A stretch of DNA of 55,003 bases from a virus: the IMG/VR virus record IMGVR_UViG_3300030328_002398, positions 1 to 55,003 of that record; one strand, written 5' to 3'. Made by a program: the position numbers and the translations under genes. This document shows, piece by piece, positions 5,641 to 39,676 of this stretch; position 1 is the first letter of the stretch, and each line of letters opens with the position of its first letter. Under the pieces are notes generated by a model, which saw only the letters and a program-made list of their open reading frames with translations, was not told the origin of the DNA and made no database searches.

Positions 5641-6042
5641 TTGCAAGTTTTTAGTTCCCCTGACGATTATTTGTTTAATCTTCACACATGTTCACCTGCT
5701 GAAGCTAAGAAAATATGGAAATTATCCATTAAGGAAGAATTTAATCACAAATGCGCTTATTGTGGATCAAGAGAGAATTTAACTCTCGACCATTTAATAC
5801 CAAGATATTCTGGGGGTACTAACGAGAATACCAATCTCGTGTGTGCCTGTTTTTTATGCAATAGTGATAAATCCCATGAACCTTGGCAAGAATGGTATCG
5901 GAAACAGGATTTCTACGATCCATATAAAGAACAACGCATATTAAAGTGGCAACAACAGAATAAGAAGAAAGAGTATGAGGATAGAGCTGGGGTAATCCTG
6001 ACTCGCAACAACTTCATATACAAAAGATTAAAAAATTCTTAA
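5641..6042 (+). CDS. HNH endonuclease
   Basis: A 133-residue protein with a zinc-type HNH fold: CAYC (38-41), LDHLIPRYSGG with Asp50-His51, NLV and a CFLCN knuckle (70-73) followed by DKSHEPW. HNH proteins in T4-like phages are often free-standing homing nucleases, though some act in packaging or recombination. There is no in-frame ATG before the domain and a stop at 5629, so translation must begin at TTG 5641 or ATT 5632; TTG is preferred because it gives MQVFSSP. Confidence 0.88.
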   Translation: MQVFSSPDDYLFNLHTCSPAEAKKIWKLSIKEEFNHKCAYCGSRENLTLDHLIPRYSGGTNENTNLVCACFLCNSDKSHEPWQEWYRKQDFYDPYKEQRILKWQQQNKKKEYEDRAGVILTRNNFIYKRLKNS

Positions 6043-6104
6043 ACTGTATCAAAACGAACACCATTACTTGCATATATAATAAAAGTGTGTTATTATTAAC
6101 ACAT

Positions 6105-6166
6105 ATCGTTCAACCTGATACATTCAGGTCGCAAGTAAGCCGACTCGGAACGGAATCGTTCATCCC
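6105..6166 (+). promoter_or_regulatory. probable glutamine riboswitch (Downstream-peptide / glnA-II type)
   Basis: The segment has a P1 pairing CGTTC (6107-6111) with GAACG (6148-6152), an internal hairpin ACCTGA/TCAGGT (6113-6118 with 6124-6129), the conserved core GTCGCAAGTAAGCC and the CGGAACGG motif. This is the arrangement of the Downstream-peptide class described in cyanobacteria and marine phages, related to glnA RNA, which binds L-glutamine. A second CGTTC (6157-6161) next to the start codon can compete for the same GAACG strand, giving a plausible switch. It sits immediately before a short gene, as the class name implies. Upstream are a TATAAT (6075-6080) and a 7-bp inverted repeat (6086-6103). 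Identification is by recall of the consensus. Confidence 0.78.
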
Positions 6167-6331
6167 ATGTTTCATCTAGCAGTTATTGCAACCGCCTTTA
6201 CTTGTATCGAAGCTCAGACTCTTTTAGATAAGATGGATGAGTTTAAGATAGATGAAGAGACACGAGCTGAGATGATCAGCGTAGTGATAGAAGAAACACC
6301 TCATTGTGAGTGGGACGCAAAAGCCGACTAA
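6167..6331 (+). CDS. riboswitch-controlled 54-residue acidic protein
   Basis: It starts directly at the 3' edge of the riboswitch. The peptide has a hydrophobic or alpha-helical start (MFHLAVIATAFTCIEAQTLL), two cysteines (13 and 47) and an acidic C-terminal half. Genes downstream of this RNA class encode short peptides of mostly unknown role. Because related glnA-type RNAs control glutamine synthetase inactivating factors in cyanobacteria, a nitrogen-metabolism role is an attractive but untested inference; the acidic sequence does not look like those basic factors. Confidence 0.8.
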   Translation: MFHLAVIATAFTCIEAQTLLDKMDEFKIDEETRAEMISVVIEETPHCEWDAKAD

Positions 6332-6374
6332 AGGAACGGACTTAAAAAACCCAACTACTTTAGGAGTTAATCCA

Positions 6375-6518
6375 ATGGCAAAAGTCACATACAGAGGTGT
6401 CGAGTATGACACCGCAGAGTACAACAAAAAGGTACTCGATGAAGCAGCTCAATTAAGAAATCACGATCTAATGTATCGTGGTATCAGACACGAACATAAG
6501 TTCGCATCTAAGAGCTAG
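6375..6518 (+). CDS. DUF4278-like small protein
   Basis: A 47-residue protein with two copies of the YRG signature (VTYRGVEYD at 4-12 and LMYRGIRHE near 31-39), typical of the cyanobacterial and cyanophage DUF4278 family. Function unknown. ATG 6375 is chosen over an in-frame upstream GTG (6306), which would overlap the preceding gene, because AGGAGTT (about 6361-6367) lies at the right distance. It is followed by a strong terminator. Confidence 0.8.
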   Translation: MAKVTYRGVEYDTAEYNKKVLDEAAQLRNHDLMYRGIRHEHKFASKS

Positions 6519-37540: not shown

Positions 37541-37612
37541 GCCTCTATAGCACAGCGGTAGTGCAGGGCTTTTGTAAAGCCAAGGTCGGCGGTTCAAATC
37601 CGTCTGGAGGCA
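37541..37612 (+). tRNA. tRNA-Thr (TGT)
   Basis: A 72-nt cloverleaf: acceptor GCCTCTA/TGGAGGC (one T-G pair), D arm GCAC/GTGC, anticodon loop TTTGTAA with TGT, and T arm GGCGG/CCGTC around TTCAAAT. One G-A mismatch sits in the anticodon stem. The 3' CCA is not encoded. It lies directly before the tmRNA acceptor piece. It reads ACA codons. Confidence 0.93.
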
Positions 37613-37679
37613 TCCTCTTTTGAGGATAGGTGATGTCACCTACATTCTGGACAGGAGTTCGACTCTCCTCACCTCCACC
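37613..37679 (+). ncRNA. ssrA: tmRNA acceptor piece (permuted two-piece tmRNA)
   Basis: The 3' half of a tmRNA placed first. The tRNA-like T arm AGGAG/CTCCT around TTCGACT (37653-37669) is preceded by TCTGGAC as in bacterial tmRNA ends. The acceptor strand is CACCTCC (37670-37676), the discriminator A37677, and partial CC follows. CACCTCC pairs with GGGGGTG at 37759-37765, about 80 bases downstream, which would complete the acceptor stem. A TCCTC/GAGGA hairpin (37613-37626) and TAGGTGA/TCACCTA inverted repeat (37627-37642) precede it. Such permuted tmRNAs are known in marine cyanobacteria. The 5' boundary is uncertain. Confidence 0.85.
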
Positions 37680-37681
37680 TT

Positions 37682-37754
37682 TGCTCCTTAGCTCAGTTGG
37701 TAGAGCGGTTGACTGTTAATCAATTTGTCGCTGGTTCGAGCCCAGCAGGAGCAG
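37682..37754 (+). tRNA. tRNA-Asn (GTT), embedded between the tmRNA pieces
   Basis: A complete 73-nt cloverleaf: acceptor TGCTCCT/AGGAGCA, D arm GCTC/GAGC, anticodon stem GTTGA/TCAAT with loop CTGTTAA, T arm GCTGG/CCAGC around TTCGAGC, discriminator G. It begins 2 bases after the acceptor piece and ends 4 bases before the coding piece, so it fills the intervening segment of the permuted tmRNA. Its processing ends could release the tmRNA pieces. Confidence 0.93.
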
Positions 37755-37758
37755 TCAT

Positions 37759-37990
37759 GGGGGTGCCAAGGTTTCGACAGGGTATAAGGAACATGACTGA
37801 AGACCTGCTTGGATAAGCAAACACAGATGCTAAAGACATCGACACCGCTGCGAATAACATCGTAGCATTCTCTCGTGTTCTCACAAGAGAATTCTCCCGC
37901 ACTAGCGAACTCGCTACTGCCTAAGGGGAGATGGGGGTTTAGATCAACCTTCTTAACCAACTGATCCTTGGGGGTGCAATGCCCCCTCTA
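37759..37990 (+). ncRNA. ssrA: tmRNA coding piece with proteolysis tag
   Basis: It starts GGGGGTGCC, followed by GGTTTCGACAGG, the conserved 5' tmRNA segment. The tag frame begins at GCG 37850 and ends at TAA 37922-37924. It encodes 24 residues, starting ANNIVAFSR (the cyanobacterial tag start) and ending SELATA. The C-terminus differs from the LAA or VAA that proteases recognise. After the tag, AUCCUU (37964-37969) can pair with GAGGAU (37622-37627) of the acceptor piece. A GGGGG/CCCCC hairpin (37970-37986) may end or stabilise the RNA. The 3' end is uncertain. Confidence 0.9.
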
Positions 37991-38008
37991 TTACTATGTT
38001 TTTAGGTA

Positions 38009-39676
38009 ATGAGAGTAGTTGGTATTAGTCCTAGTCATGATGCTTCCGTTTGTGTATTAAACGATGGAGTTATAGAAGGTTTTTATAAAGAAGAGAGATA
38101 TTGGCGTGAGAAGAAAGCGGATAGACCATACCTTTCATTAATTGAAGCAAAGAATAACTTAAAGGGTCCAGTAGATAAGGTAGTAATTGCATCACCAGAT
38201 CCCCCAGATTCATATAGTATAGATGAGATCGCAAGGAGATTATTTGGTTGTGAAGTTCTTGATATGTCTCAGGTGCATCACCTACAACATGCTGCACTTG
38301 GATTTGAGAATAGTAAGTTTGATCAGGCTTTAATATTTGTGTTAGATAGACAGGGATCTCTTATAGGTGATTGTTTAACTGAATCCGAGACTGTTCTTGT
38401 AGGAGAGAGGGATCCATATTCAATTATGGAGATCTATAAAAACTATTGGGCTCCTGTATCTGGTTTTGAACATTCTTTAAAGATTAATAAGGTATTAGAA
38501 GAACTTAATAATAGTGGAACTACTAAACATATTTGTAGAAGTCAGTTTTGTTTAACTAAAGTTTATGAGTCTGCAACTACTTTAATAGGACAACACCCAT
38601 TAGAGAATGGTAAGACTATGGGATTGACTGCTTATGGTAATCCTGACGGATTTCCAGATCTATTTGTTAAGGCATTGGATCCAGACATCCAAATGATTCC
38701 AAACGATTCCTATTTTAATAAGATAGAACCCATAACTCATACACCAGAACCCGTATGTTTTAGGGATTTTACTCATATGATTGTTAAGAATGTCCCTCAA
38801 GATTATTATCAAGTATATGCTGATTATGCAAAGCATGTTCAGAATCAAACTCAAGAGGCAGTATCAGAATGTATTGCATACTATTCTAATAAGACAGGTA
38901 TTAAGAATATAGTGGTGACAGGTGGTTTTGGTATGAATGTAGTTGCAAATTCATATTATGTTCAGACTAATCCAGATCTAAATTTCTTCTTTGAACCACT
39001 TGCAGATGATACTGGTAATAGTATTGGTGGTGCCATGCTTGTATATAAACAAACATCAAAAGATATTAGAAATTATGCTTTATGTGATACCTTCTATCAT
39101 GGAACTCCTACTTCTGCTGGAGATCTAGGACAGGATGTTGATTTATCTGAGGTTGTAGAGTTACTCTTACAGCAGAAGTCTATTGGAGTATTTCAAGGAT
39201 ATGCAGAGGCAGGACAACGTGCATTAGGTAATAGATCTATACTATTTGATGCTACTAATCCAGAGTGCAAGAATATTCTTAATCGTATTAAGAAGAGGGA
39301 ATGGTATCGTCCTTTTGCTGCAATGGTACTTGAAGAAGACGCTGATATATATTTTGATATGTTAGGATCATCTCGTAGTGAGTTTATGACTCAATCATAT
39401 CAGGTTAGGAGTGAATATAGAGAATTACTAAAGGGTATTGTACATGTGGATGGTTCTTGTCGATTACAGACAATAAATAAAGGACATTCATTATATGATT
39501 TCCTTAAGGAATTGAAGAGTAATGACCATATTGGTGTTATTGCCAATACATCATTTAACCTTGCTGGAGAACCACTTGTAGAAACAGTGGATCAGGCTCT
39601 TAAAACACTAAATGAATCAGAGTTGGATTATCTCTGGTTTCCTGAACATTCTAGGATTATTAAAGACAATGTTTGA
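38009..39676 (+). CDS. carbamoyltransferase, NodU/CmcH family (second copy)
   Basis: 555 residues with N-terminal ISPSHDASVCVL, metal-binding VHHLQHAALGF (His90, His91, His94), GKTMGLTAYGNP, GGFGMNVVAN, then C-terminal AEAGQRALGNRSIL and REWYRPFAAMVLEED. It carbamoylates an unknown hydroxyl acceptor. It is clearly diverged from the copy at 4114, so not a recent duplicate. It leads the oxygenase cluster, and the next gene overlaps it by 8 bases. Confidence 0.92.
   Translation: MRVVGISPSHDASVCVLNDGVIEGFYKEERYWREKKADRPYLSLIEAKNNLKGPVDKVVIASPDPPDSYSIDEIARRLFGCEVLDMSQVHHLQHAALGFENSKFDQALIFVLDRQGSLIGDCLTESETVLVGERDPYSIMEIYKNYWAPVSGFEHSLKINKVLEELNNSGTTKHICRSQFCLTKVYESATTLIGQHPLENGKTMGLTAYGNPDGFPDLFVKALDPDIQMIPNDSYFNKIEPITHTPEPVCFRDFTHMIVKNVPQDYYQVYADYAKHVQNQTQEAVSECIAYYSNKTGIKNIVVTGGFGMNVVANSYYVQTNPDLNFFFEPLADDTGNSIGGAMLVYKQTSKDIRNYALCDTFYHGTPTSAGDLGQDVDLSEVVELLLQQKSIGVFQGYAEAGQRALGNRSILFDATNPECKNILNRIKKREWYRPFAAMVLEEDADIYFDMLGSSRSEFMTQSYQVRSEYRELLKGIVHVDGSCRLQTINKGHSLYDFLKELKSNDHIGVIANTSFNLAGEPLVETVDQALKTLNESELDYLWFPEHSRIIKDNV

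Follow-up and report, generated by a model that had tools for sequence, protein, structure and literature searches.

Here, we analysed a 55,003-nucleotide (nt) stretch of DNA, IMG/VR virus record IMGVR_UViG_3300030328_002398 (hereafter, the window, meaning the whole stretch), a 55-kb virus record with cyanophage genes, including psbA, with a PhotoRC-II RNA at its start, and a two-piece transfer-messenger RNA (tmRNA). An element located around an open reading frame (ORF) of 54 codons is probably a nested, or 'interlocked twin', glutamine-I-type cyanophage riboswitch with a protein gene inside its aptamer. Comparison of related loci shows a predicted fold in which two modules, each consisting of helices P1 and P2, share a single P3 helix. 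The outer P1 is formed by the opening strand of module 1 and the closing strand of module 2, yielding the glutamine-I three-way junction, whereas the inner P1 is predicted to form a small hairpin. In the same predicted fold, the loop of the second P2 helix (P2b) encodes a conserved two-cysteine protein, the start codon of which abuts P2b and the stop codon of which lies inside P3/loop E.

An earlier note on this DNA had described a glutamine-type riboswitch of the Downstream-peptide (glutamine-II) class, placed ahead of a 54-residue phage protein. The sequence pieces on which this description was based are all present, namely, CGTTC (6107-6111), GAACG (6148-6152), ACCTGA/TCAGGT (6113-6118/6124-6129) and CGCAAGTAAGCC from 6130, as are a second CGTTC (6157-6161) and the ATG-initiated ORF (6167-6331). 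The window contains this 5' motif a single time, and 100 shuffles contained none. A second core, CGCAAAAGCCGACTAAAGGAACGG at 6316-6339, which spans the stop codon of the ORF, is also unique in the window, and a chance match was rejected given that none was obtained in 100 shuffles. This core and CGTTCATCCC, right before the start codon, make up a second element, its halves being the second CGTTC, 5' of the start codon, and a previously unnoticed GGGACGCAAAAGCCGACTAAAGGAACGG across the stop codon, so that the ORF occupies the hairpin loop. The true element extends over approximately 6105-6342, about twice the length reported earlier, and is followed by a leader that reaches the next gene at 6375.

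Covariation across the open reading frame

A pattern scan of viral contigs yielded at least 120 loci; these loci, and those behind all counts in relatives given below, were found by patterns in which the core letters are fixed, and all are mutually related. Among the matches listed, a short hairpin replaces the ORF in 35 of 106 distinct loci, about a third. The P3 helix was compared across 333 distinct loci, of which 178 have an ORF in their second hairpin and 155 do not, and, with few exceptions, the strand 3' of CGCAAGTA in element 1 is complementary to the strand 5' of (G/A)AAGGAACG in element 2. The pairs that span the ORF include AGUCG/CGACU, AAUCG/CGAUU, AAUCU/AGAUU, AUUCG/CGAAU, AGACU/AGUCU and AGUCA/UGACU. 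In 66 dereplicated ORF-type loci, 330 of 330 P3 pairs hold across the ORF, which none of 2000 shuffles matched, with exchanges of the types G-C/A-U, U-A/A-U and G-C/A-U/U-A. P2b pairing over the ORF is equally complete in these loci (100%), and all four pairs covary. For the whole structure, an alignment-based count in the same 66 loci gave 99.5% paired cells (0 of 500 shuffles), with changes on both sides in 11 pairs (66 cells), and the pairing collapses when the partners are slid. A purely protein-level cause of the conservation at the ORF end was rejected because the same RNA persists in loci that lack the ORF and in those where the ORF terminates sooner or continues beyond this point.

Pairing of the P1 strands

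All P1 strands read either CGUUC or GAACG and, being identical, cannot decide between crossed and local pairing. On paper, a local P1 is possible for each element, and tandem glnA RNAs are known (PMC2864571), so that the locus might be thought to contain two ordinary tandem aptamers, each with its own P1 and the second one harbouring an ORF by chance. The pocket residues discriminate between the two arrangements. In known glutamine riboswitches, a long-range pair, 19:41, connects the base that follows GAACG with position three of the CGC or CGG linking strand (PMC6698751). In the window, the equivalent pairs are C6132:G6339 and C6318:G6153, and relatives covary at these positions. The pocket pair is crossed rather than local in all 156 informative loci (out of 482), 88 of which read G,G,C,C and 46 C,C,G,G, and in 76 of the 76 loci left by dereplication, an ORF being present in 39. 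Furthermore, the halves of loop E are split, AGUA being found solely in element 1 and GAA solely in element 2; neither element is thus a complete glutamine-I aptamer, and a full glutamine-I junction arises in the nested parse alone.

Several additional observations concern the same choice. RNAalifold, unaided, recovered the outer P1 together with the inner hairpin, and the linker of that hairpin measures 3-6 nt in 333 loci, never 2 nt, although the pattern permitted 2. The glutamine-I covariance model (RF01739) aligns over the whole ORF-less tandem of locus L007 (3878-3963, minus strand) at 41.0 bits, with a 39-nt insert in P3. The energy of the nested fold is below that of the local fold in 136 of 138 sequences, a result qualified by the unconstrained minimum-energy fold, in which neither P1 is complete in most sequences. 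With the P3 helix connecting the elements, independent tandem aptamers are a very improbable explanation. Comparative sequence evidence makes it well supported that the partner of the first CGTTC is the last GAACG, that P3 joins the elements across the ORF, and that the ORF fills the P2b loop. The competition of the second CGTTC for the GAACG strand, which the earlier note had envisaged, accordingly takes a definite form, covariation showing that these two strands pair in the nested fold.

Affinity with the glutamine-I class

The Rfam search suggested at the outset returned matches to the window far above chance, yet both fall just under the respective cut-offs: 34.2 bits for RF01739 (cut-off 35, E = 1.9e-5) and 29.1 bits for RF01704, the Downstream-peptide family (cut-off 33, E near 1e-5). 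Close relatives match RF01739 at the gathering level. The nested parse contains the glutamine-I three-way junction of P1, P2 and P3 with loop E (AGUA opposite GAA), the GAA of most relatives being replaced by AAA in the window, as well as the glutamine-I pocket residues, that is, the CGUUC/GAACG P1, the CGC or CGG linking strand and the complementary base after GAACG.

A conventional glutamine-II switch in the 5' leader that controls the 54-residue ORF, with unrelated sequence after the ORF, would account for the RF01704 score and for a motif preceding a short ORF, the layout originally described for this class (PMC2864571). This explanation is very unlikely, given that RF01739 outscores RF01704, the 3' half beyond the ORF shows both conservation and covariation with the 5' half, a complete second element is kept in ORF-less relatives, and the pocket pairs are crossed between the elements. 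All 156 informative relatives have crossed pairing in place of the local pseudoknot of glutamine-II, in which the P2 loop provides GAACG, and the Rfam alignment of the window has non-standard pairs in P2. The Downstream-peptide class was rejected on both score and topology; judging from the sequence, the anatomy of the outer junction is that of glutamine-I. Hence, of the earlier description, a glutamine-type riboswitch in a phage is upheld by the sub-threshold Rfam matches, the gathering-level matches in close relatives and the DUF4278 gene that comes next, whereas the Downstream-peptide assignment is unsupported because the architecture is glutamine-I, and the placement ahead of the peptide because the ORF lies inside the aptamer.

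Five other phage contigs (L022, L044, L079, L080 and L093) carry single canonical glutamine-I aptamers, each with its own P3, located 5' of other genes; those of L022 and L093 match RF01739 at 46-49 bits.

Genes within the aptamer loops

The position of the gene in the P2b loop is nearly invariant: the ATG lies at a constant offset 3' of the second CGTTC in 160 of 178 loci, and the stop codon (UGA or UAA) begins one base 5' of loop E in 157 of 178. The ORF of the window matches the phrog_504 profile (E = 2.6e-11), as do 63 of the 64 members scanned, and, outside the RNA element, selection on the family is purifying (median dN/dS 0.25-0.50). The number of cysteines is exactly two in 156 of 156 proteins. 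The AlphaFold model of the 54-residue protein comprises two helices (residues 13-25 and 30-43; mean pLDDT 79), for which a structure search found no significant match. Given its hydrophobic N-terminus and two cysteines, the protein may be a small hairpin that is stapled by a disulphide and either exported or attached to a membrane.

An ORF occupies the loop of the first P2 helix (P2a) in at least 61 distinct loci, 35 of which also carry the P2b-loop ORF. Such ORFs end either within the 3' strand of P2a or at the UAA contained in CGCAAGUAA, and the P2a stem extends to the start codon in 39 of the 61 loci. The double-ORF form is present in the isolates P-SSM4 (PSSM4_169.2, 169.3 and 170) and P-HM1 (PHM1_179, 180 and 181), where all the genes are annotated as hypothetical. 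The isolates P-SSM2 and S-SSM7 likewise carry the element.

In two contigs, L251 and L243, an endonuclease-VII/HNH-like ORF lies in the P2a loop of a cassette that interrupts the final P1 strand of a different nested element. The cassette (L251:5504-6430; minus strand in L243) comprises an entire element, is inserted at GGAACG^G, is bounded on either side by AAGGAACG and includes a late-promoter-like hairpin, TATAAATA; it is a candidate homing riboswitch cassette. It could be argued from this endonuclease ORF, and from the gain and loss of ORFs among relatives, that the conserved flanks belong, at the DNA level, to a mobile cassette, for instance as homing or recombination sites, with the RNA fold being secondary. 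DNA target sites, however, should conserve sequence, whereas the helices change in pairs, and the cassette always occupies the same position before the DUF4278 gene; we regard this possibility as exceedingly remote. In seven loci (L011, L043, L048, L064, L089, L108 and L251), the leader that connects element 2 with the DUF4278 gene contains an extra insert just 5' of the Shine-Dalgarno region, built as CGGATCC-hairpin-GAGAAGGTT or in a similar manner.

Occurrence

Among 84,980 species genomes, the nested pattern was found in 7 contigs only, and the two examined, L126 and L129, resemble the cyanophages P-TIM40 and MED4-213/P-HM1. A host origin of the nested form was rejected on these grounds, and, as far as these sequences indicate, the form appears to be confined to phages.

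The downstream gene and a putative expression platform

A DUF4278-like gene follows the element in 440 of 456 loci. In the window, the gene at 6375-6518 matches phrog_5049 (E = 3.7e-23) and contains the YRGVxYD motif, its Pfam PF14105 score being 24.4 against a cut-off of 25.3 (E = 3.7e-5). IF17, the glutamine synthetase inactivating factor of cyanobacteria, has DUF4278 as its N-terminal part, and in these bacteria DUF4278 genes follow glutamine riboswitches that are switched on by glutamine (PMC6316151); glutamine-II is likewise an ON switch (PMC6698751). The usual riboswitch-controlled position is held by this gene and not by the 54-codon ORF.

CUAAAG at 6328-6333, which includes parts of the stop codon, loop E and P1, is complementary to CUUUAG at 6358-6363, overlapping the Shine-Dalgarno sequence. 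In the loci compared, C faces a loop-E A in 0 of 71 cases, and either C or U faces a loop-E G. These observations support this pairing as a candidate expression platform.

Layout and flanking features

The features of the element are listed in Table 1. In relatives (n = 420), TTGAC clusters at -36 to -38 and TAnnnT at -13 to -15 relative to P1. An inverted repeat, TGTGTTA-TTAT-TAACACA (6086-6103), flanks the -10 box just 5' of the element, the predicted transcription start being 3' of it; the arms vary among loci with complementarity kept, stems of at least 5 being found in 300 of 420 loci compared with 71 of 420 after shuffling. Immediately 5' of the promoter is an HNH endonuclease ORF (5641-6042; PF14279, PF01844). 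Elsewhere in the window, the tmRNA (37541-38015) is a permuted two-piece form whose intervening segment contains a tRNA-Asn gene and whose start is overlapped by a tRNA-Thr.

Table 1. Predicted components of the nested element and its surroundings (window coordinates)
Feature	Position	Strand	Basis
Predicted sigma-70-type promoter TTGCAT-17-TATTAT; expected start about 6103, at the aptamer	6068..6096	+	Sequence; clusters in relatives
Outer P1, 5' strand CGUUC; partner 6334-6338	6107..6111	+	Nested topology, RNAalifold, Rfam alignment of L007
P2a hairpin ACCTGA/TCAGGT	6113..6129	+	Helix covarying in relatives; ORF instead in 61 distinct loci
Linking strand CGC and loop E 5' half AAGUA; C6132:G6339 pair	6130..6137	+	Glutamine-I consensus; crossed long-range pair
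P3, 5' strand AGCCGACU	6138..6145	+	Pairs over the ORF with 6322-6329; compensatory changes in relatives
Inner hairpin P4 (second P1) GAACG-GAAU-CGUUC	6148..6161	+	Linker 3-6 nt in 333 loci; RNAalifold
P2b, 5' strand UCCC, abutting the start codon	6163..6166	+	Pairs with GGGA 6312-6315; changes on both sides, 66 ORF-type loci
54-codon ORF in the P2b loop (phrog_504); stop TAA 6329-6331 in P3/loop E	6167..6331	+	
P2b, 3' strand GGGA, and second linking strand CGC; C6318:G6153 pair	6312..6318	+	
P3, 3' strand AGCCGACU, within the ORF	6322..6329	+	
Loop E 3' half AAA, P1 3' strand GAACG, G6339	6330..6339	+	
CUUUAG overlapping Shine-Dalgarno AGGAG; candidate expression platform	6358..6366	+	Complementary to CUAAAG 6328-6333
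DUF4278 protein, 47 amino acids (phrog_5049), gene after the riboswitch	6375..6518	+	Profile matches

Proposed mechanism and significance

Both modules retain the CGUUC, CGC and GAACGG residues of the glutamine pocket, including the covarying 19:41 pair, from which we infer that the element binds glutamine and that each junction would be a glutamine pocket. When glutamine is abundant, the 3' half would close onto the 5' half, occluding the internal start codon that adjoins P2b, blocking re-initiation there, and releasing the Shine-Dalgarno sequence of the following DUF4278 gene. When glutamine is scarce, or ribosomes occupy the ORF, the aptamer would be open and the internal protein made, and loop E could pair with the Shine-Dalgarno region; ribosomes on the ORF would open the aptamer and, by pushing aside the anti-Shine-Dalgarno strand, may make the second gene accessible. 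The two genes, internal and DUF4278, would then be under opposite control. With the ORF threaded through the sensor loop, nutrient sensing and gene reading should therefore exclude each other, and the phage might in this way gauge host nitrogen. The direction of control is the weakest step of this scheme. A riboswitch class with genes in the aptamer, in which two pockets share a helix, translation and ligand binding are mutually exclusive, and glutamine controls two genes in opposite directions, is a tentative proposal to which we give somewhat less than an even chance.

Several observations weigh against the nested glutamine-I interpretation. The RF01739 score of the window is just under threshold; P1 shows no covariation, its strands being invariant and partly fixed by the search patterns; and P3 of the window contains two C-A mismatches, at positions that are mostly A-C or C-A in long-P3 relatives. 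All six pairs of the Shine-Dalgarno switch form in only 201 of 390 loci, about half, and folding gave equal Shine-Dalgarno accessibility in both topologies, neither being shown to expose it.

It is also conceivable that the structure is as described but serves another ligand, or none, for example, as a scaffold for translational feedback on the internal ORF. The inner junction lacks loop E, the ORFs differ among phages, and glutamine binding is deduced from sequence. Nevertheless, both modules keep the pocket residues and the covarying pair known from glutamine riboswitches (PMC6698751), and the downstream gene belongs to the DUF4278 class found behind the glutamine riboswitches of the hosts; we consider such a non-glutamine role unlikely.

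Riboswitch aptamers are usually regarded as non-coding leaders. In the present family of ocean viruses, which is very common, genes lie within the aptamer itself, their start and stop codons forming part of its helices, and some phages carry two such genes, each in a loop of its own. If correctly interpreted, the nested element is a natural case of ribosome and ligand competing directly for one RNA, its two pockets make it a candidate for cooperativity, and it ties cyanophage gene control to glutamine, the host nitrogen signal, via DUF4278, the N-terminus of host IF17. The arrangement is easy to miss because annotation pipelines display a weak or partial Rfam match and separate hypothetical proteins.

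Comparison with known systems

The glutamine pocket, the DUF4278 link, glutamine riboswitches in cyanophages and tandem glnA RNAs are already known. We found no prior account of interlocked, exchanged modules or of genes inside an aptamer in the literature searched, which excluded Ames and Breaker 2011 and Klahn 2018. Glutamine riboswitches have been reported in cyanophages (PMC9964418, PMC9602691) and predicted in the marine phages S-CREM1 (PMC9964418) and Melnitz (PMC9004378); in the parts of the S-CREM1 and Melnitz reports available to us, these are single Rfam-type predictions, with mention of neither a nested structure nor an internal ORF.

With the glutamine-I riboswitch (glnA RNA, RF01739), the phage element shares the P1-P2-P3 junction, the CG(C/G)AAGUA linking strand with loop E, the GAA-GGAACG 3' strand, the long-range 19:41 pair and the downstream DUF4278 gene. 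Unlike in glutamine-I, however, P3 is capped by a second P1-P2 module rather than by a small loop, the halves of loop E reside in separate modules, and the P2 loops can house whole genes. The pocket residues, the first hairpin, small genes nearby and the DUF4278 association, seen in picocyanobacteria, are shared with glutamine-II (Downstream-peptide, RF01704), from which the phage element differs in lacking a pseudoknot-forming P2, in its sub-cut-off score and in holding the ORF inside instead of downstream. As in tandem riboswitches, there are two aptamer modules per leader, but those of the phage are interlocked by a shared helix and exchanged P1 strands instead of standing side by side. Group I introns carry homing-endonuclease ORFs in peripheral loops. 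The phage element resembles them in placing a protein gene in a loop of a structured RNA, including, in one loop class, an HNH/endonuclease-VII-like ORF; in contrast to these introns, it is a regulatory leader of a riboswitch family and does not splice.
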